64,000 nucleotides of DNA from a virus, in the IMG/VR virus record IMGVR_UViG_3300023243_000009, positions 1 to 64,000 of that record. One strand, written 5' to 3'. Positions 691 through 49,874 of the stretch are shown here, piece after piece. The stretch's first letter is position 1, and every line of letters starts with the position of its first letter. The notes below the pieces were generated by a model. That model searched no databases. It saw only the letters and a list, made by a program, of their open reading frames with translations, and was not told the origin of the DNA. Position numbers and translations under genes: made by a program.

Positions 691-1293
691 TTATATAATA
701 GGACATACCCCATAGGAACATAATATTTCACCTAATATGGTACTTACTTCTTGGTATCTATCTTGTGCTTTAAATTCTTGACTTTCTTTTACTAAATTCA
801 TAAATGAATCGGGATTTGATGGGGTTGAAACAAAATCCCAACACAGCAATTCAAAATCATCTTGCACTTCCATTAACCCACCTACATCTTTAAGTGAACC
901 CATTCCTCTAGATGATACACCCACAGTAATACCACTTTCAACTAATGCTTTAAGTATGTTTCCATTTGGGGTGGGTAATATTTCTATCTTACCCATCACA
1001 TTATCCCCATCCCACCACATATCTGCAATGTTATGGGATACGTTTTTGAGATTGATTACTGATGATTCTGGGTGATCTAATTCCCCCATAGCTCTGTGTT
1101 CTTTAACTAATGGGAGATATTTAGCTATTTCTCTTTCCCATAATTCTCTTGAGTAATATCTACCATTTCCATTTTTAACCTCGGCTGTGGCTAAAATACC
1201 CTCAACTAAAGGAAGTCCTCTATTGGATTTATTTTCAGACAGTCTTGATCTAACTGGTTTGAAAATGTGGGTTTCTACAAGGATTTTTTTCAT
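691..1293 (-). CDS. 21: Prohead maturation protease, T4 gp21-like (peptidase S80)
   Basis: This serine protease of the prohead core would cut the scaffold, capsid and internal proteins during head maturation, typically after [L/I]xE in T4. Two family motifs are visible: GELDHPESS with the presumed catalytic His74, and GVSSRGMGS with the presumed catalytic Ser at 127 or 128. The length of 200 residues fits gp21 (about 212). It lies between the portal-side head genes and the scaffold-like gene, as in T4. The C-terminus ends in an unusual Cys-containing tail (CSYGVCPII). A terminator follows. Its target consensus recurs near the N-termini of several proteins encoded at 14.2-15.8 kb. Confidence 0.92.
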   Translation of the reverse strand: MKKILVETHIFKPVRSRLSENKSNRGLPLVEGILATAEVKNGNGRYYSRELWEREIAKYLPLVKEHRAMGELDHPESSVINLKNVSHNIADMWWDGDNVMGKIEILPTPNGNILKALVESGITVGVSSRGMGSLKDVGGLMEVQDDFELLCWDFVSTPSNPDSFMNLVKESQEFKAQDRYQEVSTILGEILCSYGVCPII

Positions 1294-6284: not shown

Positions 6285-6294
6285 TTATAAATAT
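6285..6294 (-). promoter_or_regulatory. Late promoter ATATTTATAA before portal gene
   Basis: The minus strand reads ATATTTATAA 11 bases before the portal ATG, matching the T4 late consensus TATAAATA in its extended, reverse-readable form. It overlaps the last bases of the terminase gene. Presumed target of the gp55-like sigma factor encoded at 49884-50597. Confidence 0.65.
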
Positions 6295-9056
6295 TATAAA
6301 AGCCATTGAATGCTTTCATTTTTACCCCCAATTTCTTGTGTGTAGGGGTTGGTTATACTATTATGTGAATATACCCCACTATAGTTTGATTTATTGGATT
6401 TTATCCCACCTAATGTTGCTCTAGCCATATCTAAACTCTGTTGTTGGAATTTTAATGAAGTATCTCTCAGAAACATACCGACTGAGAATGGCATAACCAA
6501 GTCATCATTGTAGCCACTTTGGGCTTCTGGTCTTCCATTCTTCCAAACGAACACTTTCATCTCTTCTACTAAACGTTTTGAGCGAATTGTTACTGATCTA
6601 TCACCAACAAATTCTCTGAATTTATTAATGCAAAGGGGTCTAGTTCTCATTGACATTGTAAATCCTGGGATCATTTCACTATTACCTTCATAAACACGAA
6701 GATATGATTCTGCCGTAATTTGGTCTCCTTTTGGTGAGTGGTATAAATTATTATACTCTCTCTCTTGTATTGCATCTAGAGTTGCCCATCCAATATTAGC
6801 ATTTTCTACTACCAACATCCCATTATTATATTCTGTAGCTAAACCTGTGAGGAAATAACCGAATTCTTTTGGGGGTAATTGGCCTTTATATTCTGCAACT
6901 TGTGTATTTGTTTGTATATCTATCACATGACATGCCGAGAAATCTTTACCATCTCCCCGGGCAACATCTGCTATAATCATATATTCTCTAGAGTAGTCAG
7001 CTGGTTCCCAAATCCATAAGTTTTGGTCTACACCTCTTCTCTCTAATGGTTCTTTTACAGTTGTTGAACTTATAAATTCTAACCATTCACTATAAAATAC
7101 AGTATCACCTGATGTGTTAAAATCACAGTCACAATTATGTACTATTCCATATTCTGTTACATATGTATGAGTATTTTCTATTTCTAGGTTAAATACTTCT
7201 AATGTTCTAGGAGAGGGGGTAAGTTTTAAACTTGTAAGAGGTTCAGATATAAATTCAAAATTACTATTTGAATTAGATTTCCCTATAGTATTAATTCTAC
7301 TCCAATCCTTTATCCTTTTACTAAATATCTTTTCATCCGAATTTATAATACTGTTAGTCCAAGTTAATGTAAAGTTATCTCTCCAACTATCCTTATCAGG
7401 GTTATTTGGGTTTTGTGATTTACCTTTTTTTAAGGTGACATTATGGATTCCTAAGATATTAGAAATATATAACATATCATATATTAATTTTTCGGATGTA
7501 AGGAGGAGTTGGACATTATATTCAGATTTTAACATCCCATCTCCAACTAACACCCCATCAAGTATACCTTTTAAGGTTTCTTCATTAGATGTAGAATATA
7601 AAAATTTACTTATATGTTTATTATAACTATATTTTCCCCCTTGAATACATAATTTTATAAAATTGTGGAAAATTTGATCTTTTATATATAATTTACTACT
7701 ACCCTCCCAAATTTTAGAAGTATAATATGAAAAATTTGTTATATTAAATTTCTCAGTTAATATTCTTTCAATTTCTAAAGGAAAACCTTCTCTTTCTGTC
7801 TTCCCATTAAATGAAAACTCAACTTTATTTTTAGCTAAAGATCCTTCTGATAAAAAACAGCCTATTAAAAATCCTAAATCATAATCAATTTTAATAAATC
7901 TGTTAATTTTACTAGTTTTTGTAAGCCATATAAATTTATCATCAATTTTTAAAGGGAATGATTTTGGAGAATTAGAAATAATATAATTTGAAAGATCAAT
8001 AGTTTTACATTCAACTTTGTATTCATCTACTTTAGGGAAATACTTAACCTTATTATTAGAATCTATAATTGAACCTACGTCTTCCCATTCTCCTAACATA
8101 TTGAGGAATGGGTGGTTTAAGGTGGTATATTTTTGAATGTTATTTAATCCCCCCTTTATTTCTATGGATTTGTCTGTAATATGGGAATGTTTTTTTATTA
8201 CTTTATTATAAGACCCATCATGGCTTAATACTAAATCTCCCAATTTAATATTTTTTATATATTGAGGGCCAAATTTTGTATATATTATTGTATCTTTACT
8301 AAAACATTCTTGTGCTGCTAGTCTAGGATCACCTAATAAGGTATCTTGAGCATCTCTCCATGTTTGGTCTCGTTCAGGGTGAACGTACCATGGAAGTTTA
8401 ATTGGTAAGAAATCGTTTTCTCCGGATTCTGCTTTAACCCATGTTTGATGAAACCAATTACCAGTACCATATGGGGTAGATAGTACAATAGCTCCACCCC
8501 CCGTAGCTAGAGTTTGCTGTGCAGAAGCCCACGTTTCACCAATGTTATCAATGAAGGCTGCTTCGTCAATTATTAGTAAAGATACTGCTTCTGAACGTGC
8601 TGCATCGGCATTTGAGGATTTTGCTTGTATTTTCGACCCATTAGAAAGTCTAAGGGATAATTTGTTATTTTCTACAGAGTCTACTTTTAACCATGAGGGT
8701 AAGTTTTCCCACATAAATTGTACCTTGGTTACTAAGTTTTTAGCTGTTGCTTGTGTTGTTGCTAGTGCTAATATATTTTTATCCTTATGGAAGGTCATTA
8801 ACCAAAGACCATAACCTGATACTAGAGTTGATATACCTAATTGTCTAGATTTTAATATAGTACTATAATCGTTGTTTTGAAATAACGCTAATACTTTTTC
8901 TTGAAAGGGGTACAGGTTAAACTGTATACGACCCCGTTGTGGGTGTTGTATATAACAGTATTTACGCATAAAATGTATGGGGTCTTTACAACATTTTAAA
9001 TACTCATGTCTAATTATTTTTTTAAAATCTTCAGCCATTATTTTCCAATTTTCCAA
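6294..9056 (-). CDS. 17: Terminase large subunit (T4 gp17-like) containing an intein
   Basis: The packaging motor ATPase and nuclease. The 920-residue ORF contains a 391-residue intein (residues 251-641), leaving a 529-residue mature terminase (T4 gp17: 610). The ATPase domain shows a Walker A variant SRQLGIST at 70-77 and a Walker B with catalytic Glu, LLIIDEAAFID at 160-170. The C-terminal RNase H-like nuclease begins with IIADVARGDGKD (Asp697). The intein sits between AAQE and CDCDF, in the linker before the nuclease. The start overlaps the previous gene by 19 bases. The terminase can function only after protein splicing. Confidence 0.95.
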   Translation of the reverse strand: MENWKIMAEDFKKIIRHEYLKCCKDPIHFMRKYCYIQHPQRGRIQFNLYPFQEKVLALFQNNDYSTILKSRQLGISTLVSGYGLWLMTFHKDKNILALATTQATAKNLVTKVQFMWENLPSWLKVDSVENNKLSLRLSNGSKIQAKSSNADAARSEAVSLLIIDEAAFIDNIGETWASAQQTLATGGGAIVLSTPYGTGNWFHQTWVKAESGENDFLPIKLPWYVHPERDQTWRDAQDTLLGDPRLAAQECFSKDTIIYTKFGPQYIKNIKLGDLVLSHDGSYNKVIKKHSHITDKSIEIKGGLNNIQKYTTLNHPFLNMLGEWEDVGSIIDSNNKVKYFPKVDEYKVECKTIDLSNYIISNSPKSFPLKIDDKFIWLTKTSKINRFIKIDYDLGFLIGCFLSEGSLAKNKVEFSFNGKTEREGFPLEIERILTEKFNITNFSYYTSKIWEGSSKLYIKDQIFHNFIKLCIQGGKYSYNKHISKFLYSTSNEETLKGILDGVLVGDGMLKSEYNVQLLLTSEKLIYDMLYISNILGIHNVTLKKGKSQNPNNPDKDSWRDNFTLTWTNSIINSDEKIFSKRIKDWSRINTIGKSNSNSNFEFISEPLTSLKLTPSPRTLEVFNLEIENTHTYVTEYGIVHNCDCDFNTSGDTVFYSEWLEFISSTTVKEPLERRGVDQNLWIWEPADYSREYMIIADVARGDGKDFSACHVIDIQTNTQVAEYKGQLPPKEFGYFLTGLATEYNNGMLVVENANIGWATLDAIQEREYNNLYHSPKGDQITAESYLRVYEGNSEMIPGFTMSMRTRPLCINKFREFVGDRSVTIRSKRLVEEMKVFVWKNGRPEAQSGYNDDLVMPFSVGMFLRDTSLKFQQQSLDMARATLGGIKSNKSNYSGVYSHNSITNPYTQEIGGKNESIQWLL
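7134..8306 (-). mobile_element. LAGLIDADG intein in terminase large subunit
   Basis: The insertion starts at Cys251 (block A, CFSKDTIIYTKFGPQ) and ends VHN641 followed by Cys642, the expected N- and C-splice junctions. Block B is visible as YTTLNHPF (His315). Two LAGLIDADG-type helices, LGFLIGCFLSEGS (about 394-406) and LKGILDGVLVGDGML (about 495-509), indicate a homing endonuclease domain. Removing it restores AAQE-CDCDFNTSG, continuous with the terminase family. All splice residues are present (Cys1, penultimate His, terminal Asn, +1 Cys), so the element looks splicing-competent. Both second acidic residues of the endonuclease helices (E and D) are present, so nuclease activity is plausible. 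Confidence 0.93.
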
Positions 9057-10136: not shown

Positions 10137-10146
10137 TTATAAATAT
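10137..10146 (-). promoter_or_regulatory. Late promoter ATATTTATAA before packaging operon
   Basis: ATATTTATAA on the minus strand, 15 bases before the ATG at 10121. It would drive the coiled-coil, membrane, terminase and portal genes late in infection. Confidence 0.65.
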
Positions 10147-14234: not shown

Positions 14235-14822
14235 CTATATTCTATCCCCCATAACATCAGCAAAATCTGAAGCATATTCTTCATAACTTACTTCTCTACT
14301 TCTTCCGTCTTTTGCTTCATCACTATATCTATCTTGGATAGCATTATGAACTTCTATTGCATTACCTCCTGTTCTATCATTTTTCATAAAATCAATAACA
14401 TCTGGGTATTTGCTTCTTAGGATTTTATTAATTCTCATGTTATGAGTTCTATCTAAATGCACTTTGTCTGGTTGTCCTCTTTCAAATTCCATTCCAGTGG
14501 GGGTTTTAGAACCAAATGTTTTATCCATCGCACTATAAGGCATATAACTATAATTTTTATCTTTAAAATACCCAACTATTTCTTCACCTGGTTTGTCTTT
14601 AAGATCCCTTGCTAACTCATCGCCTACCATAATACCTGGGCCTATTTCTAAGTACATAAATATAGCTTTATCTCTATCACTATATGATTCTATATCTTCA
14701 ATATCTTTAAAATCCTCAGGTGTAACCATAGAAAGATATTTATTTATAAATCTTGAAGATACATCTTCTTTTACTATTTTACCTTCAGTAAGGAATTGTC
14801 TAAATCTGTATAATTCTTTCAT
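14235..14822 (-). CDS. Putative internal head protein with capsid-targeting-like N-terminus
   Basis: 195 residues, unrecognised body. The N-terminus MKELYRFRQFLTEG parallels the T4 internal-protein leader MKTYQEFIAEA: about a dozen residues, aromatic and hydrophobic, ending in [L/I]xE before a small residue. The predicted cut is after Glu13 (LTE|G). The rest is mixed alpha/beta and charged, with HLDRTHNMRINKILRSKYP and a helical C-terminus (YEEYASDFADVMGDRI). Last gene of the cluster before the terminator. Effector role after ejection is inference. Confidence 0.7.
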   Translation of the reverse strand: MKELYRFRQFLTEGKIVKEDVSSRFINKYLSMVTPEDFKDIEDIESYSDRDKAIFMYLEIGPGIMVGDELARDLKDKPGEEIVGYFKDKNYSYMPYSAMDKTFGSKTPTGMEFERGQPDKVHLDRTHNMRINKILRSKYPDVIDFMKNDRTGGNAIEVHNAIQDRYSDEAKDGRSREVSYEEYASDFADVMGDRI

Positions 14823-14833
14823 ATTATTTTATT

Positions 14834-15586
14834 TTAAAAGTCTATATCGTCAGGAGTTGTTCCTTTAAATTTAGCATCAAATTCCTCTGATTTGTGGGGT
14901 TGTGAATCAAGTCCCCTTACAGAACTCATTAATTCCCCATTAGGTATTTTTATTATGTATATTTCATTACTACCCGGAGAAATGTTTACTGTATCCATAA
15001 AGATATGTTCGTCTTCGTTTCTATCGAAACCAATATATTCAAGATCGTGCCATTCGTCCATTCCTGGTTCGTGTACTTCGTAATCTTGTCCACGTTCAAG
15101 TTGGCTATCGTATTCGTTTATGGTACCTTCTGTAAGGTATTGTCTAAATGCGTTTAATTCTTTCATATTTATTCTTTCTTTTAAGTCATAGTAACCACTT
15201 TCTTCTCTTTCTTTTTCCGCCTCTAATTGAGATTTGTAATATTCATCTATTAAAGGAAAAATTTCAGTTTCAGATTTAATATCTTTACCCCATAAGTCAT
15301 CACCAAACGTCTGACCATTTTTTGTTATGAGTAATAAACCTGCTGAGAAGTTATCATCGCCAACGCCTATTTCTATATCGCTTATACCAGTTAATTTATT
15401 ACCCTTAGTTATTCTAGGGTTATAATTAGCATCTTTAAGCATCTTAAATATTTTTCTCATTGGAAGATTAACACCTGTATCCCCTCCTACCATCGTAGCT
15501 ATGTAAGGGTTTTCTTCAGTATATTTAAAATCTTCCTCAAATATCTTACCTTCAGCTAAATATTTTTTTAAATTAAAATTATCCAT
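14834..15586 (-). CDS. Tandem two-module protein with two capsid-targeting-like leaders
   Basis: 250 residues that read as two proteins in one frame. Module 1 starts MDNFNLKKYLAEGKI (cut predicted at LAE|G) and runs to about residue 138. Module 2 then begins NMKELNAFRQYLTEGTINE, a second leader of the type found at the N-terminus of the downstream gene. Either a fusion occurred by loss of a stop codon, or the internal ATG also serves as a start. If gp21-type protease cuts at both LxE sites, two mature proteins would be released in the prohead. Neither body is recognised. Confidence 0.72.
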   Translation of the reverse strand: MDNFNLKKYLAEGKIFEEDFKYTEENPYIATMVGGDTGVNLPMRKIFKMLKDANYNPRITKGNKLTGISDIEIGVGDDNFSAGLLLITKNGQTFGDDLWGKDIKSETEIFPLIDEYYKSQLEAEKEREESGYYDLKERINMKELNAFRQYLTEGTINEYDSQLERGQDYEVHEPGMDEWHDLEYIGFDRNEDEHIFMDTVNISPGSNEIYIIKIPNGELMSSVRGLDSQPHKSEEFDAKFKGTTPDDIDF

Positions 15587-15592
15587 TTATTT

Positions 15593-15805
15593 TTACATTC
15601 TTCCAAATTCGAAAGCAATTCCAAATTCTTGGCCTATTTCTTCCATTACATCCTGAGGGTCAAGTTCGTGGTATTTGATTATATCTTTTATTTTTTCCAT
15701 AATCATCTCATCAGTGTAATCTTCTTCACTGTTAGCATAATCATTTTTATAGTCTTCATTTAACTTACCTTCAGCTAAATATTTTTTTAAATCAAATTTA
15801 TCCAT
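15593..15805 (-). CDS. Short putative internal head protein with LxE leader
   Basis: 70 residues. The N-terminus MDKFDLKKYLAEGKLNED is nearly identical, in protein and in DNA, to that of the downstream gene at 15586, evidence of recent duplication of the leader. The body is acidic and helical (MIMEKIKDIIKYHELDPQDV). Predicted cleavage after LAE leaves a 58-residue mature protein. Overlaps the upstream cupin-like gene by 8 bases. Confidence 0.7.
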   Translation of the reverse strand: MDKFDLKKYLAEGKLNEDYKNDYANSEEDYTDEMIMEKIKDIIKYHELDPQDVMEEIGQEFGIAFEFGRM

Positions 15806-16364: not shown

Positions 16365-18224
16365 CTACCAGAATGTGTTTTGGTTTGCTCCTAATCCTAA
16401 AGCCTGAGCATAGCGAGGGGTATTACACGACCAGTATCCGGCTTTAGTTCTATCTTTTTTATCTTTACAATTATGACGTGCTGCAAAAGCATTACGTGCC
16501 TCTTTGTTTTTAATTTTAGCTCTTAAACCACCGGATCCAAAAGTTACTTTTTTAATTTTATCTCCGTCTTTAACGTAAACATAATATGCCTTAGGCCCAC
16601 CTCGTTTTGGTTTATTTAATGCTACTTCTTTACCTTTAAATTCTGCTTCGCTTACTGCTGAAAAATCTGGTCCTCCTGATTGTGAAGATATTTTAATATC
16701 GTTTTTAGTAATATATTTTAATATGTACTTTTCTTCAGGTTTTAGGTTGTTTTTACTAGCGAATCTATCTACAGCCATTGATGAAGCATCATCTCCATAT
16801 TCTTTTGTAAATTTTAATATCAATGATTTTGCTCTACCCTTTGGTGAAGATGGGTTATCTAAAAATTTATCGTATATGTCTTGTTTAGCTTCTTGTAAAG
16901 CTTCCTTAACACCAACTTTAATTTTATCTTTTAAGACTTCAGCTTTTTGTTCGTCAGTGCAGTTTTTGTAATCGCAATCAAATTTACGACGTGCAATTAA
17001 ATCTAATCTAAGTAATTCTTCTTGATTATATTTTCTATCTTCTTTTAAGTCTTCTTTATGGTATAGTTTTTCACTTTTACCATTAGGACCACTTCCATTT
17101 TTATCGTGAGGGTTACCTGACATTAGTGAACCATCAGGCATTTTGTGTAGTTTACCTTTCCATTCTTTACCATCTTTAGTATAATGTGGAACACCTTCTT
17201 TTTCATTTAATGATTCTAAAAAGTCAAAATGACTACTAAGATTGTTTCTAAATATGTCAAAATCACTTCTATCAAATCCTAATATTTGACCATTATTTAA
17301 ATTTCTATAAACACCTTTTCCACCTTGTTCTTTACCTGTGTATCTCCACATCCCGCTTGAAATAGATGTATCTTGGTATCTTATGTTTTTATTTAAATCA
17401 AAATCTGGGTAGTTAGAATCTGATTCATTTAATCTAGATAATTGTTTTTCTAGTTTTTTTATCAATGCCTCTTTTTTCTTAGGATCTGATGGATTGGATA
17501 ATTTATTAGAATTTTTTAAATTCCATAATATACCTTCTATCTTTTCTCTATCAATTTTATCCTCATTCATAGACATATTGTCTATTTCATCACGAACCCA
17601 TTCTTTTTCACCTGATCCTAATTGATCATAATCCATACCAAATTCTGATTGGGATGCTTCATCATAACGGAATAAAAGGGAATGGCCAATTTCATAATCC
17701 ATAGATTCATTAATATAGGGTTTAGATGTTTTTTCCCATTTATCTCCTGCCCAACTATATTTAATAGTTTGTTTTTTATCTTTACCAAACTTAGTAACGT
17801 CAACAGAAATAGCATTTCGTTTAACCATTTTATCCATAAAATCTTGGACTTCTTCAAATGAATCTAAATTTTCTTTAGTTTTTTTATCTCCTAGATTTGC
17901 TACTACCTCATAGTAAGCTTCATTTAACATAGGTAAATCTAACGGTACCGATTCTCCTTCATATAAACCAAATTCACCTAAATGTGTTTTAATTAATGCC
18001 TCGTCTTCTTCACATAAATTAATTACATTACGTGAATACATTTTTCTAGCTTCTCTAATTAAAGATAAGTGTTTATCTGAACCAATGCGATATACTGTTT
18101 CAAATAATGGTACTTTTTTATCTATATGATATTGAAGTCCTTCCGATAGTAAAGATTTTACTTTACTTTCTGTTAATAGTGGTCCATTATTAGTTCCACA
18201 AGTATTACATCCGCATTTACACAT
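16365..18224 (-). CDS. Large modular virion-associated-type protein with Cys motifs
   Basis: 619 residues. A Cys-rich N-terminus (MCKCGCNTCGTNNG) precedes two LxE sites (PLLTES, SLLSEG), again like targeting leaders. The middle contains HYTKDGKEWKGKLHKMPDG and SLMSGNPHDKNG. The C-terminal ~70 residues (KVTFGSGGLRAK, RHNCKDKKDRTKAGYWSCN) match a small module appended to many phage proteins, a R-H-x-C ... YWSC motif that may bind metal. No enzyme is identified. Position among LxE-leader proteins suggests a packaged multi-module protein. Confidence 0.65.
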   Translation of the reverse strand: MCKCGCNTCGTNNGPLLTESKVKSLLSEGLQYHIDKKVPLFETVYRIGSDKHLSLIREARKMYSRNVINLCEEDEALIKTHLGEFGLYEGESVPLDLPMLNEAYYEVVANLGDKKTKENLDSFEEVQDFMDKMVKRNAISVDVTKFGKDKKQTIKYSWAGDKWEKTSKPYINESMDYEIGHSLLFRYDEASQSEFGMDYDQLGSGEKEWVRDEIDNMSMNEDKIDREKIEGILWNLKNSNKLSNPSDPKKKEALIKKLEKQLSRLNESDSNYPDFDLNKNIRYQDTSISSGMWRYTGKEQGGKGVYRNLNNGQILGFDRSDFDIFRNNLSSHFDFLESLNEKEGVPHYTKDGKEWKGKLHKMPDGSLMSGNPHDKNGSGPNGKSEKLYHKEDLKEDRKYNQEELLRLDLIARRKFDCDYKNCTDEQKAEVLKDKIKVGVKEALQEAKQDIYDKFLDNPSSPKGRAKSLILKFTKEYGDDASSMAVDRFASKNNLKPEEKYILKYITKNDIKISSQSGGPDFSAVSEAEFKGKEVALNKPKRGGPKAYYVYVKDGDKIKKVTFGSGGLRAKIKNKEARNAFAARHNCKDKKDRTKAGYWSCNTPRYAQALGLGANQNTFW

Positions 18225-18227
18225 AAT

Positions 18228-19322
18228 TTATATTTTTAAACGTGGTATTAAATCTGCGGGGAAAGAAACTTTAATTTCACTTCCTATTTTCCCCACAAAA
18301 TCTCCCCCATTATAATATTTAAAATTTCCATCTAAATCTGAAAATAAGACACCATCAAATTTTTCGATGTCATAATAAGCTTGGGCTAATTGTTTAGCTA
18401 ATTCTATTACAAATTCTCCGGATTTAAATTCGCTGTCAGTTAAAAAATCATTAGAGTTTAAATCTAAAGTACGATACATTTTTTTAAGTGTATCATTAAA
18501 ATTTTTGGAAAATAAAACTTTATCCCCCCCAAATTCATTATATTTTTTATAAAAGGCATCGATCTTTTTAGCCCAAGAACCGGCCACACCAGGTTCATTT
18601 AAAGATAATATTTCTTTTTCTTGTTCAGGTTCCAAATCTAGGGATTTAATAAAATTTAAAAGATAAGGTTTAATTGAAGTTGAAAAATCTCCTCTATTAT
18701 AAATTCGTGGAGATACAACAGCACCAGTATTACCTGTACGTGATTTTAATTCTACTTCTTTACCATCAATATCTAAATCCCCCTTAGATTTTGCTTTTTT
18801 GACATTACCAAAAAATATAGATAAGAAACTCTCTCCAGGTCCTAAAGAAACAGTACCTTTAATAGAATCTTTCATATCAAAAAACAATTTTTTTAATTCT
18901 TCAGGAGTAAAACCTGGGATTTGGGTGTAATAGTTATTGCTTGTTAAATCAATTTTAGGTGGGTTAATGGCTAGGGCAGCAAACTCCCCTAATTTATCCA
19001 TATTTTGAAGTAAAGTAATAAAGTAATTTATATCTTTTTCCGTTAAGTTCTTTGTACTTAAATACCCATCTAAGTTTTTTGAAAAACCTGCGGATTTAGC
19101 TAATTTAAAAATTTTTTTTAGGGTGTCTTCATCTTCAACCCCTTGAATAAAATCAATGAGTTCTTGTTTATTAAATTGAGGTTTTTCCTCTTCTTTTATC
19201 CTATACATATAACTTTCAACTATAGAAAATAACATTTCTGTATCTTTAGGGTCATCCATATCGGGGTAACCTTTTGGAAATTTCCAACTATGTTCTTTTA
19301 ATATTTTATCAAATACGTCCAT
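18228..19322 (-). CDS. Protein with PD-(D/E)XK-nuclease-like motif
   Basis: 364 residues. Around residues 160-195 the sequence GPGESFLSIFFG, then KGDLDIDGKEVELKS, gives the order E164 - D182 - E191-L-K193, which fits the restriction-endonuclease-like core. The flanking N-terminal ~120 residues are helical, and the C-terminal half contains KVLFSKNFNDTLKKMYRTLD and a mixed alpha/beta end. A nuclease role (DNA processing in the head, host DNA attack, defence) is possible but the motif alone is not proof. Four bases from the next gene. Confidence 0.6.
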   Translation of the reverse strand: MDVFDKILKEHSWKFPKGYPDMDDPKDTEMLFSIVESYMYRIKEEEKPQFNKQELIDFIQGVEDEDTLKKIFKLAKSAGFSKNLDGYLSTKNLTEKDINYFITLLQNMDKLGEFAALAINPPKIDLTSNNYYTQIPGFTPEELKKLFFDMKDSIKGTVSLGPGESFLSIFFGNVKKAKSKGDLDIDGKEVELKSRTGNTGAVVSPRIYNRGDFSTSIKPYLLNFIKSLDLEPEQEKEILSLNEPGVAGSWAKKIDAFYKKYNEFGGDKVLFSKNFNDTLKKMYRTLDLNSNDFLTDSEFKSGEFVIELAKQLAQAYYDIEKFDGVLFSDLDGNFKYYNGGDFVGKIGSEIKVSFPADLIPRLKI

Positions 19323-19769
19323 TTATATTTCTTCTAGTTCGGGTTTTGCTTCAGGTTCTTTGGAGGTTGATTCTGTATCGTCCCCTAAATCTCCAGCATC
19401 TTTTGATGAAGCGCCATAAGATAAAATTCGAGATACGGATTGTGCCGCTCTTTCTTCTTCATCTAAATTAAGTAAATAATATTTTTTACCCTCAATTTGC
19501 GCTATCCATGTTCTGTCAGTGAATATAAGTAGAAAATTTTGCCCATTCAACAGATTTACACGAAAAGTTGTAGGACGTGGTGCTACCCAATCTAAGGATT
19601 CTAAAAATTTATCAAAATCTGTTGAAAGTAGATCTACGATTACTGATTTAAGTTCAGGGAACTTTGAAAGTTCATCATATGCTAATGCCTTATCATCAGA
19701 TTTTAATTTATCTTGATATAAGGGCTTAGCTAGATTTTTTATTTTATCTCTTAGTTCTGACTTTGTCAT
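19323..19769 (-). CDS. Unknown protein, acidic C-terminus
   Basis: 148 residues. The N-terminus [20 protein letters not shown] resembles that of the product of 9618-10121 (MKKSELRHQIQTEIKS). A compact alpha/beta region includes PTTFRVNLLNGQNFLLIFTD and WIAQIEGKKYYLLNLDEEE. The last ~35 residues are acidic and low-complexity. Directly abuts the nuclease-like gene, so the two may act together. Confidence 0.6.
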   Translation of the reverse strand: MTKSELRDKIKNLAKPLYQDKLKSDDKALAYDELSKFPELKSVIVDLLSTDFDKFLESLDWVAPRPTTFRVNLLNGQNFLLIFTDRTWIAQIEGKKYYLLNLDEEERAAQSVSRILSYGASSKDAGDLGDDTESTSKEPEAKPELEEI

Positions 19770-20920
19770 TATTTAAATGTATTATTGGCATTTTTTAACA
19801 TAGCAATCATTTTCTTAATTTTAAGCTGTTGGTCTATGGGAAGTTTTTCTAATCTATCTTCCTCTTTTGCTTTAGCCCATTCTTCCTCAGACATTCCTTC
19901 ATTAGTAGATTTAAGATTTAATTCTTTTGCTTTAGATTCAGCTTCTTCCCTAGATTTAAATCTATAAGTTCCAGTTATACTTTTATTAGTAGTTTTTGAA
20001 CCTGATTTAACTTCGGTTTTACCTGTATCTTTATTTGTAACTAAATAATAAATTTGAGAAGATTCATTTATATCTCTGTTGATTGCGGGTTCAGATATCA
20101 TAGCATCAATTTGATCTACTTTTTCTTCACCGTCTAAATAATGTTTAGCCGATACCATTAAATCGCGTGCCTTAATCACTTTACCTTGCCACCAATGTGG
20201 GAAGTCTACTTCACCACCTTGATCGTATTTATCTAACATTTTATACAGTTCACCTGCGTATTTTGCAATGCGGTATAAATCTTTTTTTAGCATTCGTGGT
20301 TCATTGTCTTGATGTCCTACATCTAGATCTTCATTCATTTTTCTTATTAAATGAAGTTCTTGTTCTTTATCCCATTTGTAGTTTTTAGAATCGAAGTCTT
20401 TTAATTTTTTAGCTTTTTGGTATTCTGCAGGTGATAACGCGTCTTGTTTAAGTAAATTATTAGCTTCATTAATATCTTTTTCATCGCTACTAGCACCAAA
20501 TGTTTTATGAACTAAATTGTCTAGTTTAGTGTGGGATTTGTTTTCTTCTTTTGCACTTAGATCTTCTCCAATTTCACCTTTAGACATTTGAGCTACATAA
20601 GCGGCTTTAGGGTCTTTGGGTAATGTGTCTATTTCTCCACTTCTAACCTTCTGCATGAAGTATATTTTAGCTTTATCGTCTAATAATTGCTCATTAGTGG
20701 TTTTAGGTTTTGATAAAGTGGATTTAATTAATTCTTTAATATTTTCTTTGTTCATGTCTTCTACTTTTTTCTTAGCTTGTTTAGTTGCTATACCATACAT
20801 AACTTTCTCCGCATCCTTACCATACTTTTTAACTAAGGATTTCTTATTTTGTTTTAGCCCTTGAAGAGCACTTTCGCGCTTTTCAAGTTCATTTTTAGTA
20901 AGTTTGCGTTCGTTAAGCAT
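19769..20920 (-). CDS. Modular phage protein with DVGHxDxEPRMLKKxLYR module
   Basis: 383 residues. Two modules common in marine T4-like phages are visible. One is an N-terminal basic helix pair, [20 protein letters not shown]. The other is a central segment from [20 protein letters not shown] through [17 protein letters not shown] to [17 protein letters not shown], helical with conserved Trp/His. Near the C-terminus [20 protein letters not shown] resembles a short sequence-reading module. Function unknown; probably in the virion. One-base overlap with the downstream gene. Confidence 0.65.
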
Positions 20921-20923
20921 GTT

Positions 20924-21742
20924 TTATCTATTTACAACGTGTGTTCTAGTGAACATTGTAATAGTGTTACCAATTTGATCTGCTAATTTTTCATCCCCAA
21001 TAGCATTAGCATTATCAAATGCAACTTTAAGAGCATTTTGTATGTCTTGTTCATCTTGAGTTAAACCAGCTTCTGGGTCAATAGCATCTACATCTCCTCC
21101 ACCTACATCTTCTCCTTCTTCTTCATCCCCAACTTCTACTTCAACATCCTCTTCTTCATCATCTTTAGCTTCAGCTAAGTTTCCAGAACCCATATTAATG
21201 TCTTGTGAAAATTCTTGCATTTGGTATGATAAGTATTCAATTACATCACCCACATCAAATGCATCCCCATTATCAACCATATCTTCATAAATTTCACTAA
21301 ATTTATTTAGAAATTGACTTTTTAATCTTTCATTAGTTAAACCATCAATACGAGAAAATACTTCGCCCGTTATTTCATTTAATTGAGACATTAATTCATC
21401 TTCTAATGTAGTATCTTCTTCATTTAAAGTTGAAAGAATATCTTCTTTAATTTTTGCCTTTAATTCAGATACCTTCATCTTAGTTGGAGATGAGGTTTCT
21501 TCTAAACCCTTATCCGCTATATAGTTTTTAAAATCTTCAACATAATCCTCTACGTCCTCAAATTCATCATTTGAGTTTTTTAAAGAGACCATGTATTGAT
21601 TAATTTCTGAGTCTGAGCCTACAGATGTTAATGCTGCTTTTATATCCCCATCTATGCCTTCAGTTAGTGTAGATTTAGATTGGTTTTTTAAATTAGTTAA
21701 GGGATTATTCCTTAGGTATTCTATGTAATTAAATTCAGTCAT
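20924..21742 (-). CDS. Acidic putative head-internal protein with LxE site
   Basis: 272 residues, strongly acidic. The leader MTEFNYIEYLRNNPLTNLKN ends in STLTEG at about residue 29, an LxE site. A second (STLNEE) occurs near residue 108. Residues ~190-225 are a nearly pure Asp/Glu/Gly/Val run (DDEEEDVEVEVGDEEEG). Helical C-terminus. Acidic low-complexity composition is typical of prohead core and internal proteins. Late promoter at 21754-21763. Confidence 0.65.
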   Translation of the reverse strand: MTEFNYIEYLRNNPLTNLKNQSKSTLTEGIDGDIKAALTSVGSDSEINQYMVSLKNSNDEFEDVEDYVEDFKNYIADKGLEETSSPTKMKVSELKAKIKEDILSTLNEEDTTLEDELMSQLNEITGEVFSRIDGLTNERLKSQFLNKFSEIYEDMVDNGDAFDVGDVIEYLSYQMQEFSQDINMGSGNLAEAKDDEEEDVEVEVGDEEEGEDVGGGDVDAIDPEAGLTQDEQDIQNALKVAFDNANAIGDEKLADQIGNTITMFTRTHVVNR

Positions 21743-21753
21743 TTTAATTTTGT

Positions 21754-21763
21754 TTATAAATAT
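21754..21763 (-). promoter_or_regulatory. Late promoter ATATTTATAA
   Basis: ATATTTATAA on the minus strand 11 bases before the ATG at 21742; start of the late operon running toward 14.2 kb. Confidence 0.65.
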
Positions 21764-21781: not shown

Positions 21782-22483
21782 TTATCCTTTAAAATCTGTT
21801 TGTTTTTTACCTTTAAATTTAATATTCCCTTTACATACTTTTACAGCACGTCCAGATAAATACGCTGAGGATTTTTCACCAGCAGATTTTCTAGATTTAA
21901 TGTAATCTTGTCCTCTTTTACAAAGTGTAGATTCGTTTAGCCCCATCCCTTCTTCTTCAGTGTCCTTAATAATTTGCATTAAGATAGTAGATAAAGTATC
22001 TTTATCTAAGCCTTTAGTTTTTCCACCTGGGAAGTATTTAGAATACCCTTCAGGGTTTTCCATTATAAATTTAAGGGTCTCTTTAATGGGGTTTTTAGAG
22101 GTTTCATTTAAATCACCTACAATTTTAAAGTTTTTACCCTTATATGCTTTTAGCTTAGCTATTTTTAGAGCTTCCTCTTCAGACGAAGCTTCAACTTCTA
22201 TTTCTTCATCGTCATAGTCATCATTTTTATATATCCAATATTGCACTACATACTTTTTATTAGCTACCCCATCTTCATTTAAAGCTAAATCCGTAAATGC
22301 ACTAGCAATTATATATTTTAATTGGGATTTTTCTATAGAACTCTCGAATTTATCAGGGAATTCTTTAGTAATTTGGTTACATAAAGTATCAACTCTTTGT
22401 TTTGCTTTTAAATCTGCATCCTCTAGGTTATTTTCCAGTAAGTTATTTCGATTCCAAGCGTATATGTCAAAATTATCTTTCAT
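21782..22483 (-). CDS. Putative virion-associated protein with Cys-containing C-terminal module
   Basis: 233 residues. N-terminus MKDNFDIYAWNRNNLLENNL. The middle YVVQYWIYKNDDYDDEEIEV, followed by ASSEEEALKIAKL, looks like a small alpha/beta domain. The C-terminus LCKRGQDYIKSRKSAGEKSS, then AYLSGRAVKVCKG, is a basic module seen at the ends of several phage proteins, with two Cys that could pair or bind metal. Function unknown. Late promoter at 22498-22507. Confidence 0.62.
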   Translation of the reverse strand: MKDNFDIYAWNRNNLLENNLEDADLKAKQRVDTLCNQITKEFPDKFESSIEKSQLKYIIASAFTDLALNEDGVANKKYVVQYWIYKNDDYDDEEIEVEASSEEEALKIAKLKAYKGKNFKIVGDLNETSKNPIKETLKFIMENPEGYSKYFPGGKTKGLDKDTLSTILMQIIKDTEEEGMGLNESTLCKRGQDYIKSRKSAGEKSSAYLSGRAVKVCKGNIKFKGKKQTDFKG

Positions 22484-22497
22484 TATTATGGTATATG

Positions 22498-22507
22498 TTA
22501 TAAATAT
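22498..22507 (-). promoter_or_regulatory. Late promoter ATATTTATAA
   Basis: ATATTTATAA on the minus strand 14 bases before the ATG at 22483. Same spacing class as the promoters at 10137, 26533 and 46859. Confidence 0.65.
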
Positions 22508-22513
22508 GTAAAG

Positions 22514-23089
22514 TTAGGATTTAAGCGATCCTAGGTATTCTATTACGGATGTTTGGTATTCTTCTACTTTGGATTTATCTAGTTTACCAACCCATTTTTC
22601 TACATCTCCTTGTTCAGATATAAAGGAATCATTAGAGGTATTTAGTTGTTCTTGAACCCATATTTTAAATTCCGCTATGCGATTATCAATTTCGTTATTT
22701 TTGATTTTACGTTCGTATTTTTCCCATCCACCATCTTTTCTAATTTCATGTTCCATGTCTATAACACAATTGAAACATTTTTTATGTAAATTGTAAAAGG
22801 GTTTATCGTTACGGTTTTTCATTACTTTTTTACAATTAGGACAAAGTAAGGGCATAACGTGTGCCTTCTTTGCTTTATCTAATTTTGTAACGTTTTGTTT
22901 TATACCATTTTTTATAGTCCAAGTTCTCCCATCAACTTCCCAAATATCTCCTTCTTTATGAAATTCCTCAGCTTTAGAGAACCCAACACTAGAGTTGGAT
23001 TTTTCTCCCTGTTTACCAGTCATTAAATTACGTAAACGTTGAACATCACGTTCTTGGAATTGTTTTTTTAAAACATTTTCTTTACTCAT
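22514..23089 (-). CDS. Zinc-ribbon protein, unknown function
   Basis: 191 residues. A four-Cys zinc-binding motif is visible: LLCPNCKKVMKN with CxxC, then KKCFNC with CxxC about 20 residues later. The N-terminal part (KKQFQERDVQRLRNLMTGKQ, then EGDIWEVDGRTWTIKNGIKQ) looks like a linker plus a small beta unit; the C-terminus is helical. Similar zinc-ribbon proteins occur in T4-like phages. Last base shared with the start of the fusion enzyme gene. Confidence 0.7.
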   Translation of the reverse strand: MSKENVLKKQFQERDVQRLRNLMTGKQGEKSNSSVGFSKAEEFHKEGDIWEVDGRTWTIKNGIKQNVTKLDKAKKAHVMPLLCPNCKKVMKNRNDKPFYNLHKKCFNCVIDMEHEIRKDGGWEKYERKIKNNEIDNRIAEFKIWVQEQLNTSNDSFISEQGDVEKWVGKLDKSKVEEYQTSVIEYLGSLKS

Positions 23090-25719
23090 TATAGTTTTAA
23101 TTTTTGTAACTGTTTAATTGTATCAAAGGTGTTGATGTGTAAAATTCCAACGCCACCTGCCTCTTCCCACTCTTCTATATTTTTTGCCCTATCATCAATT
23201 AATATTGAGGTAGGTGTTGCCAATTCCTTTTTCTGGGTTGCGTATTTTAAGATTAGTTGAGTACCTGGGATTTTGTGTTTTACCCATACTGCTTTACCTA
23301 TTCTTGAGGATTGATCTCTAGAGGGTGCTGATAGAAGTTTAGGTTTATATTGGTTAATGTAGTCCCATAATTGTTTTCCATCAGACATCCATTTTAAACC
23401 AGCCCAAAACCCAACACCTGCTTTTTTAATTGGATCCCAAAATTCTTCCCCTTCGGGTTTAAATTCACCTTGTAAATCTATACCTGTTAATTCTTCATAC
23501 CCACGTTCAAAATCAGCTAGTACACCATCTAGGTCGCAGTATATTTGGTATTCATTTTTCTCTTCTCTCAATCTTCCTAATTCCATAGCATATGTATTTA
23601 TACCAAAGGGGTCTTTATTATTATTTTCATTTTGAGGTAATGATATTATAATGGTTTCTCCATCCTCTTTTATATTAAAATTTTTAGATGTATGATTTTT
23701 TACTAATCTTTTAGAAAATATATGTCGAGAATGGGATATGGGTTTAATATATAATTTATTAGATAAACCTTTATTTTTTGTGAAAAAAGGTAATATTTCA
23801 TCCCTATAGATTTTAGCTATAGTATTTCTACGTTTTAAATTATCCATCCCTGTTGTATTAGGAGGAAGATGTGGATCATATGTTGGATCTGATAAATTGT
23901 TGTCTTTAAACCATCCTGTTTTAAATTCAAAATAGGGATTACTACTTAAAGGAGTAAAAAATATTCTAGCAAAATATAAATTGTTGTATGAATCTTTATA
24001 AGTAAAAAAACCTTTTACATTAGATTCAACATATTCAAATCTTTCACCATCAGGATTAACAACTTCAGACATTAATTGATCTTCTTCTTCAAATAAAATT
24101 TCTTCATTTAAACTGTCAGTCCAATTCCTGAATGTCATTGTACCTTTTAAATTGGCTTCAGCTTCAATATTGTTTAGGTTATCGTCTTCTTGTGTATTAG
24201 TTGTAGTGATTGCACCCAATCTACCCTCTAAATTTTGTATATGGTGGACCATTTCATGTGCAAATGAACGTACAATATCCTTGGGATGTCTGCCCTCGGT
24301 GTATAATGTGATTGTTTGGTTGTTCGGGTTATAATACGCGGTTTTACCTAGAAATTCACGTGCATTATCACGGTTACCGTTTACGAATTTAACTTTAGGT
24401 AAAGGTTTGATGTTCATACCCTTAGTTAACATATGTTTAGTTAATTCTAATATTTTTTCCTTAACATCTATATCTTTAGAATATGAAGCATTTTCGTTAA
24501 GATTTTTTTTACGTTTTAAAACTATAAATCTCCCTTTGCCTTGTGGGGTATCAAATCCCAGACTAACATCCTTTCTAAAATATCCGGGTATATTATTGGT
24601 TTTTGTATTTGTTAAATTAGCATATATTTTATGGTAGTTTTTACTCCCGTCATTATCTAATGATGCTATCCCAACGTATTCCGGTTTTTGTTTTTCTATA
24701 AAATCTACTATAACCTTATACATAGTAGATAATATTTTTATGTAATTTTCTTTACCACCTTGAGGAATAGATGTAGTGTTTTCTTCAGGGGTAAATTGGA
24801 TATTATAAAATAATCCTAGATCTTTATAAGGGTTAGGAATATTTTTAATACTATAAGTATAGGTAATATTTCCTACTTTAAAACTACCCCCTGTTAAATC
24901 TCCACTTATTTCTACAGCATTATCTTTGGATAATGAGATTTCGTTTAGAGTGTACCATAAATTTTCGGTTAGAGTTTTTTGATAGTTAAATTTAGAGATA
25001 TTTAATTCAAGGGTGGAATTTTCATTTAGAAATGGGGTATTATCATGCCCACATTTGTGACATATAAATAAATCGTCTCCTCCATCTTTTATATCCCAAC
25101 TCCAATCACAATTATCACATTCGATTTTTCCGCCTACTATAGCTTCAGTTACAATGTTATTTAACATGACAAATATATCTGTTTTTTCTTTATCGTTTAA
25201 AAAATCAGGTAAAAAATTATTTAATTTTTCTGGGGAAATTTTGGCGGCATTTCGTGCGGATGTTCCAGATATACCTCCGGTTGTGATTATAGTACGAAGT
25301 TCTAGATTTGGATATTTAGACATACCACTGGTACGTGAAGCTATATCTTTAAAATCATCTTCGTTTTCTTCTCTTGCCCCTATAATCCAAAGAACTTCAG
25401 TATTTGGGTTTTCTTTAGCATAGTTGTAAACTAGTTGGATTGGAGGTTTAGTGGCTTCTATGTATTTTACTTTAAAAGGTAAATATTTCCCATATATTTC
25501 CCATATCTTTAAAGATATTTCTTGGGATATACCATCTCTTTCACCTTTACCTATGTATACTATTACTTCATCCATTTCTGGGTTTTGGTCTATAGCTTCT
25601 TGTAGAACTTGAAAATGGCCCTTAGTGGGTGGTTTAAACCCCCCAGCATACACCCCAACACTCTTTTGTTTTTCTTCTTCAGGTAAGAGATTTTTAATTA
25701 ATTCATTAACTAAATTCAT
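23089..25719 (-). CDS. Four-domain fusion: nucleotidyltransferase - zinc ribbon - zincin - HAD phosphatase
   Basis: 876 residues. Residues 21-185 are a HIGH-type nucleotidyltransferase: GGFKPPTKGH (26-35) and ISGTSAR (150-156), as in NMN/pantetheine/cytidylyl transferases. Residues 200-226 form a zinc ribbon (C201, C204, C220, C223). Residues ~415-525 contain a metallopeptidase signature HEMVH (488-492) with a downstream Glu-rich EAEAN (519-523), fitting a glu-zincin. Residues 724-876 are a HAD hydrolase of the 5'-nucleotidase type (DLDGVLADF with D729/D731, SAPS at 797-800, LIDDRAKN at 840-847). Regions 235-410 and 545-720 are unassigned. Candidate bifunctional nucleotide or NAD-metabolism enzyme with its own protease. 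Confidence 0.85.
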   Translation of the reverse strand: MNLVNELIKNLLPEEEKQKSVGVYAGGFKPPTKGHFQVLQEAIDQNPEMDEVIVYIGKGERDGISQEISLKIWEIYGKYLPFKVKYIEATKPPIQLVYNYAKENPNTEVLWIIGAREENEDDFKDIASRTSGMSKYPNLELRTIITTGGISGTSARNAAKISPEKLNNFLPDFLNDKEKTDIFVMLNNIVTEAIVGGKIECDNCDWSWDIKDGGDDLFICHKCGHDNTPFLNENSTLELNISKFNYQKTLTENLWYTLNEISLSKDNAVEISGDLTGGSFKVGNITYTYSIKNIPNPYKDLGLFYNIQFTPEENTTSIPQGGKENYIKILSTMYKVIVDFIEKQKPEYVGIASLDNDGSKNYHKIYANLTNTKTNNIPGYFRKDVSLGFDTPQGKGRFIVLKRKKNLNENASYSKDIDVKEKILELTKHMLTKGMNIKPLPKVKFVNGNRDNAREFLGKTAYYNPNNQTITLYTEGRHPKDIVRSFAHEMVHHIQNLEGRLGAITTTNTQEDDNLNNIEAEANLKGTMTFRNWTDSLNEEILFEEEDQLMSEVVNPDGERFEYVESNVKGFFTYKDSYNNLYFARIFFTPLSSNPYFEFKTGWFKDNNLSDPTYDPHLPPNTTGMDNLKRRNTIAKIYRDEILPFFTKNKGLSNKLYIKPISHSRHIFSKRLVKNHTSKNFNIKEDGETIIISLPQNENNNKDPFGINTYAMELGRLREEKNEYQIYCDLDGVLADFERGYEELTGIDLQGEFKPEGEEFWDPIKKAGVGFWAGLKWMSDGKQLWDYINQYKPKLLSAPSRDQSSRIGKAVWVKHKIPGTQLILKYATQKKELATPTSILIDDRAKNIEEWEEAGGVGILHINTFDTIKQLQKLKL

Positions 25720-26519
25720 TAAGATAAAAATTGTTTTATTTTGGATTGTGCCTCCTCTTTAGATACAGAGCTGTTGATAATATTAGCTACAGATTCATCT
25801 TTAAGTAAATTTGTAGTTTCTTGATTTAATTCTTCTTTAGCTTTATCTGAACGAATTTGTGATTTAGCATCTTTAGGTTTAGTATTTTCAGGAGCAAATG
25901 GTGTTAGATATTTTTTAATAATTGATTCTACATCTCCTAATTTTTCATCCTCTAAAGTATTTGCTACAGATACAAAATTAATACCAAATAACTTTTTATA
26001 AGATTCATAATTTTTTGTTACATTAACCCACGTACGCAACACTATAGCGGGGGCTAAACTTCTATCTTCACCCCCGGATTTTTCAAATCTATCTTGATTT
26101 TGTTTAAGTGAGCGTTCTAAATCTGTGTAAACATATAACATAAATACATCATAACCTGCTTCTTCTAATTTGTTTTTTAGTTCTGAGGTTTGGTTAAATG
26201 AAGAGGCTGTCCCGTCTAATATAAAAGATTCTTTATTTTCTATAGCATTAGGGATTTGTTCTTTTTTGAGTTTAGATGTTGCCTGTGCCATTGCTTGGGC
26301 TGCTTTACTTCTAGATTCGGCATCATGAGATTTTAAATCTAAAGATACATTTGATTGTTTAAGTAAATCTATAAAAGTATTATCTAAATTAAACGTAGTT
26401 AAATTACCTAAATTTAAACCTTTCAAAATAAACCCTTTACCAGCACCCGGGGCGCCAGCTAATATGATAGTTTTTGGGCTACCTTGTATTTCTTTTAAAA
26501 GTTCCATTAAACTTACCAT
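25719..26519 (-). CDS. Zeta-toxin-like P-loop kinase
   Basis: 266 residues. Walker A AGAPGAGKG at 21-29, a DGTASSFNQ strand and basic lid region (KQNQDRFEKSGGEDRSLAPA, then IVLRTW) fit the zeta-toxin/AAA_33 kinase group. Possible substrates are nucleotides, sugars or RNA/DNA ends; none is indicated. The C-terminal ~60 residues are a charged helical tail. One-base overlap with the fusion enzyme, so coexpressed with it. Late promoter at 26533-26542. Confidence 0.8.
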   Translation of the reverse strand: MVSLMELLKEIQGSPKTIILAGAPGAGKGFILKGLNLGNLTTFNLDNTFIDLLKQSNVSLDLKSHDAESRSKAAQAMAQATSKLKKEQIPNAIENKESFILDGTASSFNQTSELKNKLEEAGYDVFMLYVYTDLERSLKQNQDRFEKSGGEDRSLAPAIVLRTWVNVTKNYESYKKLFGINFVSVANTLEDEKLGDVESIIKKYLTPFAPENTKPKDAKSQIRSDKAKEELNQETTNLLKDESVANIINSSVSKEEAQSKIKQFLS

Positions 26520-26532
26520 AATATGTATTTTA

Positions 26533-26542
26533 TTATAAATAT
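26533..26542 (-). promoter_or_regulatory. Late promoter ATATTTATAA
   Basis: ATATTTATAA on the minus strand 13 bases before the ATG at 26519. It marks the switch from the DNA-metabolism genes on its right to late-expressed genes on its left. Confidence 0.65.
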
Positions 26543-34594: not shown

Positions 34595-34604
34595 TTATAA
34601 ATAT
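34595..34604 (-). promoter_or_regulatory. Late promoter ATATTTATAA
   Basis: ATATTTATAA on the minus strand 19 bases before the ATG at 34575, directly after the stop region of the giant tail gene. Confidence 0.6.
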
Positions 34605-46858: not shown

Positions 46859-46868
46859 TTATAAATAT
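46859..46868 (-). promoter_or_regulatory. Late promoter ATATTTATAA
   Basis: ATATTTATAA on the minus strand, 14 bases before the ATG at 46844. Starts the gp25-gp6 baseplate transcription unit. Confidence 0.65.
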
Positions 46869-49864: not shown

Positions 49865-49874
49865 TTATAAATAT
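49865..49874 (-). promoter_or_regulatory. Late promoter ATATTTATAA
   Basis: ATATTTATAA on the minus strand 12 bases before the ATG at 49852, inside the 31-base gap after the sigma factor stop. Separates the sigma factor gene (upstream operon) from the baseplate genes. Confidence 0.68.

Follow-up and report, generated by a model that had tools for sequence, protein, structure and literature searches.

An 876-residue phage protein is an array of cassettes bordered by L/I-x-E motifs and a candidate capsid-targeted polyprotein

We found that the 876-aa protein encoded on the minus strand at 23089..25719 of the window (the whole 64,000-nucleotide stretch analyzed here, positions 1 to 64,000 of IMG/VR record IMGVR_UViG_3300023243_000009) is a string of cassettes, and that the cassettes in its relatives' proteins meet at L/I-x-E motifs, mostly LNE or LTE. 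The domain content and the module-border rule are strongly supported. We infer, with a probability of roughly two in three, that the protein is a capsid-targeted polyprotein, which the prohead protease would cleave into its individual enzymes for ejection into the host. This reading builds on features observed directly, namely the domains, the enrichment of the sites, their coincidence with borders, leaders resembling the T4 capsid-targeting sequence (CTS), and the presence of a protease gene. More broadly, and at slightly better than even odds, a large marine T4-like clade may use the prohead-protease site as a universal module border: L/I-x-E-flanked domains would be inserted, moved, and split among several capsid-targeted genes as plug-in virion payloads, with the protease as their common unpacking step.

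The reading frame is uninterrupted from its ATG start, and the plus strand across the same interval contains many stops. A preliminary description had noticed four signatures in this single protein, and all of them were found (GGFKPPTKGH and ISGTSAR; CDNC...CHKC; HEMVH...EAEAN; DLDGVLADF...LIDDRAKN). Its domain calls were backed by PHROG matches, family profiles, invariant catalytic columns, and an AF2 model in which the nucleotidyltransferase (NT), zincin, and HAD parts are folded. Single-sequence Pfam matches all stayed under the gathering cut-off (M91, E=0.015; NT5C, 0.06; CTP_transf_like, 0.14), but family profiles and PHROG supported the domains; the motif residues were invariant or nearly so in alignments of 25–30 homologs. 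An assembly error joining separate genes was rejected because an identical copy exists on another metagenome contig and diverged homologs are also fused. Two further globular regions, X1 (residues 262–404) and X2 (residues 548–700), had been overlooked.

All parts described below lie on the minus strand. Residues 1–16 (25672..25719) form a CTS-like N-terminus, MNLVNELIKNLLPEEE, as judged by the T4 CTS rules (PMC9026906). The NT domain follows at residues 20–187 (25159..25662), supported by alignment, profiles, and model; it carries TxGH and SGTxxR, corresponding to the (H/T)xGH and SxTxxR motifs. CTP_transf_like was matched by 13 of 25 NT family members in a Pfam scan, and the family profile matched PPAT/NMN adenylyltransferases in the PDB at 1e-5. 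By sequence, the domain appears nearest to phosphopantetheine and nicotinate/nicotinamide nucleotide adenylyltransferases, the profile being equally near PPAT. The zinc ribbon cassette (residues 194–229; 25033..25140) comes after VTE, which is LNE in relatives, and was assigned from weak profile support together with two conserved CxxC pairs. At the opposite end, the HAD domain (residues 722–876; 23092..23556) appears nearest to 5'(3')-deoxyribonucleotidases: residues 721–876 matched the PHROG 5'-3' deoxyribonucleotidase at E=2.8e-25, the family profile matched 5'(3')-deoxyribonucleotidases in the PDB at 4e-7, and DxDG, Lys, and DD occupy invariant family columns. Foldseek of the AF2 model, whose underlying alignment used full-length sequences, matched PPAT/NadD and HAD structures. 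A CTS-like linker, NKDPFGINTYAMELGRLREE, precedes the HAD domain (residues 701–720; 23560..23619).

The zincin cassette (residues 410–536; 24112..24492; HEMVH...E) has H78, E79, H82, E109, and E111 invariant across 30 homologs, i.e., HEXXH plus a downstream Glu. The family gave weak matches to several zincin Pfams, among them MPTase-PolyVal (PF18818), which was matched by 6 of 30 members with a best E of 0.011, below cut-off; a search of PDB sequences with the zincin profile yielded no relative. The zincin assignment is supported mainly by the invariant HExxH...E and these weak matches to several families. X1 (24508..24936) was modeled with a pLDDT of 77, and its top Foldseek matches were nearly all GNATs (probability up to 1.00, TM-scores of approximately 0.4), so that in the model it is a GNAT-like fold. 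X2 (23620..24078) is probably a diverged copy of X1 and in other phages is a stand-alone gene of 178 aa. Five [LI][NT]E sites, all in low-confidence linkers of the model, punctuate the chain: LNE at residues 231–233 (25021..25029), LTE at 250–252 (24964..24972), and LNE at 258–260 (24940..24948), at 407–409 (24493..24501) directly ahead of the zincin, and at 537–539 (24103..24111) directly behind it.

A scan of IMG/VR viral contigs returned 94 relatives, of which 80 were kept. Their conserved core locus reads kinase, then NT-[cassettes]-zincin-[cassettes], then HAD, fused or separate; a minority of loci carry the HAD as a fusion, most of the rest encode it on its own downstream, and in one protein (L174) it stands at the N-terminus. 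The inserted cassettes include zinc ribbons, a second HExxH domain (MP2), and ART-like, GNAT-like, ParB-like, and other domains, with the ART, ParB, and some GNAT labels resting on motif reading and weak matches. Among 53 non-redundant multi-domain proteins, we counted 22 architectures. The order NT, zinc ribbon, zincin, HAD that had attracted attention is real in this protein, but it is one of at least 22 permutations and not a fixed architecture. Outside viruses, a bacterial genome scan with the zincin profile returned five MAG contigs only, some named Flavobacteriales or Winogradskyella, a weak hint of the host.

In the window, the upstream P-loop kinase gene (Zeta_toxin/AAA_33; 25719..26519, minus strand; Zeta_toxin PF06414, E=1.5e-18) is co-directional with the 876-aa frame and overlaps it by one base; its N-terminus is MVSLMELLKE/IQG. 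A kinase-NT fusion, with the kinase N-terminal to the NT, was seen once (L017). The word TATTTATA lies 14 nt upstream of the kinase gene. On the coding (minus) strand it occurs approximately 12–20 nt upstream of eight gene starts, including those of the portal, the kinase, and tail-region genes (6286-6293, 10138-10145, 21755-21762, 22499-22506, 26534-26541, 34596-34603, 46860-46867, and 49866-49873), and it is possibly a late promoter or an AT-rich start signal.

The borders between cassettes were then quantified. LNE occurred 55 times in 8029 linker positions as against 2 times in 22573 core positions, and each of its five permuted tripeptides occurred 1–11 times in linkers. Across 127 junctions, 68 carried [LI][NT]E (shuffled mean 12.8, maximum 24) and 105 carried LxE; the zincin-MP2 junctions among them carried no motif. 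At P2 of the linker [LI]xE sites, N (66 vs. 8.7 expected), T (18 vs. 6.1), and S (17 vs. 7.3) were enriched; to our knowledge, a preference for N or T at this position is not a known feature of gp21. For an unbiased test, every local alignment with 60% identity or more within a set of 214 proteins was examined for the points at which homology stopped. Of the 582 breakpoints, 100 fell within 3 residues of [LI][NT]E (random 21, maximum 34) and 286 within 6 of [LI]xE (random 119, maximum 149), border counts that are partly inflated by common ancestry. Homology starts peaked on the tripeptide's first letter and homology ends on its last. Because BLAST continues through a tripeptide that the cassettes share, the exact position of this peak is partly a product of the method, unlike the excess around the site.

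Shuffles and letter permutations argue against a composition effect. LNE is encoded by 12 DNA spellings, and genome-wide its DNA word showed no enrichment (21 vs. 20 for the reversed control on the same strand), which argues against a DNA word or recombination signal and points to selection on the protein. In the literature searched, whose coverage is incomplete, no description of L/I-x-E-bordered cassettes was found; as far as that literature shows, the border rule is undescribed. We class the protein itself with polyvalent or internal head proteins.

The same borders could mark an uncut multifunctional protein, in which LNE and LTE are flexible hinges or favored recombination borders and the domains remain linked, whether in the virion or in the cell. 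We consider this unlikely, at perhaps one chance in five. Some junctions lack the motif, and the N4 virion RNA polymerase shows that a multidomain protein can be packaged without being processed (PMC5512222). However, the motif is order-specific, with LNE far above ENL, ELN, and NLE, and is nearly absent from folded cores; it also recurs at the end of CTS-like leaders on free-standing genes and fits the known specificity of the protease family that the phage encodes.

The border grammar extends beyond the 876-aa protein. A second cassette array of 619 aa (16365..18224, minus strand; family B) has the same grammar and five [LI][NT]E sites. Its minimal homologs of approximately 185 aa have a single junction, e.g., VPLDLPM-LNE-AEYQGK, at which longer homologs carry extra cassettes, most of them ending in [LI][NT]E. 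Family B cassettes recur in unrelated genes directly after LNE (AKQDIYDKFLDN... in L210; EEGVPHYTKDG... in L211), and in L252 a zinc ribbon is fused to family B. On the same strand, genes at 19769..20920, 20924..21742, and 21782..22483 are rich in [LI][NT]E. A region homologous to the first of these is fused into gp079 of Flavobacterium phage vB_FspM_immuto (immuto; NC_055915), which joins regions that are separate genes in the window. CTS-like starts were seen at 14235..14822 (MKELYRFRQFLTE/G), 14834..15586 (MDNFNLKKYLAE/G, with an internal LTEGTINE repeat of the leader), 15593..15805 (MDKFDLKKYLAE/GKLNE), and 18228..19322 (MDVFDKILKE/H), all on the minus strand. In the protein of 14834-15586, the leader NLKKYLAEGKIFEE recurs internally as AFRQYLTEGTINEY, as if two leader-led proteins had been fused.

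These genes also bear on the zincin. The preliminary description had suggested, as one possibility, that the metallopeptidase processes its own protein, and release by embedded zincins has been proposed for polyvalent proteins by Iyer et al. (PMC5512222); the invariant HExxH..E signature speaks for this reading. Nevertheless, we consider this the weaker reading and improbable, since the junctions bear the L/I-x-E motif of a T4-type prohead protease, the same borders occur in zincin-free proteins (family B, L210, L211), and the zincin itself is one exchangeable cassette. Several of 20 long contigs (e.g., 282 and 139 kb) have a gp21-type protease, LNE-bordered family B genes or cassettes, and no zincin match, a suggestive result given the possible incompleteness of these contigs. 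We regard the zincin as a probable payload and not as the general processor; a delivered effector, or a cutter of a subset of sites, is the more likely role.

In T4, gp21 cleaves after L/I-X-E, and within the CTS the targeting function maps to residues 4 and 7 and processing to residues 8 and 10 (PMC9026906). The window encodes a gp21-type head maturation protease at 691..1293 on the minus strand (phrog_207, E=7e-59), the candidate processing enzyme; terminase, portal, and protease genes all lie within 25 kb of the 876-aa frame on the same strand. Core-like proteins adjoining the protease are enriched in [LI]xE (12 vs. 5.4 and 16 vs. 5.7). Conserved LLE, ILE, and LVxE occur in the major capsid protein (MCP) propeptides of relatives, among them L090/L091, which have the same protease sequence as the window. 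In immuto, the protease itself carries LTE and LNE close to its termini. In other contigs (L246 of G001, 282 kb; L239 of G004, 80 kb), the prohead protease domain lies within an 830-aa open frame, perhaps a fusion of the protease to other head domains.

The leaders of free-standing kinase and HAD genes (MISLVQLLKE/A, MGKLVDLLE/A, MESLKELLKE/G) fit the T4 CTS spacing of 4, 7, 8, and 10, as do the NT leaders. A CTS-like leader was present in 7 of the 21 genes of the 9.6–26 kb block (0.28 expected) and in 2 of 107 genes elsewhere in the genome (1.2 expected), one of these two being a stand-alone gene that matches X1. HADs located in replication or metabolic surroundings begin without an L/I-x-E leader, as seen in Cr30 and OLIVR1, where the neighbors are genes for ribonucleotide reductase or RNA polymerase, and in phiM12. 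The NT of several deep relatives starts at residue 2 without a leader, which counts against the polyprotein reading. The earlier suggestion that the protein may be packaged is favored by genomic context and by the CTS-like N-termini, and packaging itself is a prediction from these features.

Under the polyprotein reading, the N-terminal helix MNLVNELIKNLLPEE would act like the T4 CTS and direct the protein to the core of the prohead. As the head matures, the gp21-type protease would cleave after the glutamate of L/I-x-E (mostly LNE or LTE) in the flexible linkers and free the nucleotidyltransferase, zinc ribbon, GNAT-like, zincin, and HAD modules within the head. The modules would then be ejected with the DNA and may have nucleotides, cofactors, or proteins of the host as their targets at an early stage of infection. 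Cleavage, packaging, ejection, and substrates are here predicted from sequence. The L/I-x-E sites would also mark where modules join or leave a protein, change their order, or pass from one gene to another; as the sites set the module borders, evolution could add a payload with the delivery system unchanged.

Ordinary auxiliary metabolism in the cytoplasm, in which an unpackaged fusion of an adenylyltransferase (NMN/pantetheine type) with a deoxyribonucleotidase would supply nucleotide or NAD pools late in infection, is very improbable. The annotation of the immuto relatives as NadR and NT5C and the intact catalytic motifs speak for it; against it stand the CTS-like leaders, a locus that has replication genes on one side and TerL/portal on the other and is surrounded by [LI][NT]E-rich genes, a constant cassette turnover unlike that of a pathway enzyme, and the lack of NAPRTase/NadV in the phage genome searched. 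NAD synthesis by phages has been discussed as a counter-strategy (PMC9503650). We rejected a complete NAD salvage route, which is unsupported because no NadV or NAPRTase was found in the phage genome searched.

If the polyprotein reading is true, reading the stretches that lie between L/I-x-E sites within CTS-led genes near the head cluster provides a sequence rule to spot virion-delivered effector modules in uncultured phages, and many hypothetical proteins become testable effectors or counter-defense factors. It would also account for the fast change of injected payloads in T4-like phages and supply natural precedents for loading phage heads with multiple cargoes.

Other observations concern the genomes at large. 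In the window, the terminase large subunit frame (6294-9056, 920 aa) has PHROG terminase matches at both ends (24-251 and approximately 673-876), and the long part between them matched nothing, which hints at an intein or insertion. In G000, the frame at 108664-109677 begins with an intein-end-like stretch, VYDITVQDNKNFYANGAVVHNC, and the next frame (109689-110333) is GIY-YIG nuclease-like by eye. Also in G000, two 215-aa genes with the same N-terminus (129415-130062 and 130826-131473) flank a third gene and are an apparent duplication or assembly repeat. A near-identical pair of phosphoesterase-like genes (MKIWHIGDTHTYH...) lies close together at 98012-98692 and 99697-100377 of G000, and in the same record GroEL-like and GroES-like proteins were recognized by eye at 78873-80495 and 80685-80978.

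Finally, we compared the protein with known systems. NadR shares the NT fold motifs, but its kinase fusion is absent here, the kinase being a separate upstream Zeta_toxin-like gene. In immuto, gp088 is a homologous NT-zincin-MP2 protein and the HAD is a protein of its own, gp087; their genes occupy the equivalent place, with primase/exonuclease on one side and TerL on the other. The gp088 protein has an extra N-terminal region that resembles, by eye, a Pol-beta-type nucleotidyltransferase. It has few LNE sites, a scarcity that counts against the polyprotein reading, and gp079 has four. Among the ejection proteins of the giant phages SPN3US and phiKZ, a diverged gp21-like protease processes many head proteins at a short motif and cleaves behind its final E (PMC7411985); the motif is AXE in SPN3US. 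There, cleavage mostly removes propeptides and does not liberate multiple enzymes from a single chain.

Polyvalent proteins (Iyer et al. 2017, PMC5512222) are likewise large phage proteins that join unrelated enzymatic domains with a zincin as hub; they are predicted to be packaged and injected, and they share ART, GNAT, ParB-like, and zincin modules with the cassette loci. The class comprises 2–15 domains of disparate activity, of phage or plasmid origin in a packaging-gene context; the present protein has NT, zinc ribbon, one or two GNAT-like, zincin, and HAD domains and lies among packaging genes of a phage. A text search of PMC5512222 found no mention of NMN or adenylyltransferase. Release there was proposed to come from embedded zincins, whereas here the linkers contain L/I-x-E sites of the prohead-protease type, which coincide with the module borders, in a T4-like myovirus. 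The internal head proteins of T4, IPI-III and Alt (PMC9026906), share leader positions 4, 7, 8, and 10, the L/I-X-E cleavage motif, and variable payloads; correspondingly, we found an N-terminal CTS-like sequence ending in L/I-x-E and a gene for a gp21-family protease. Each T4 protein is a single payload trimmed at its ends, whereas the protein described here strings several shuffled candidate payloads together with internal sites.
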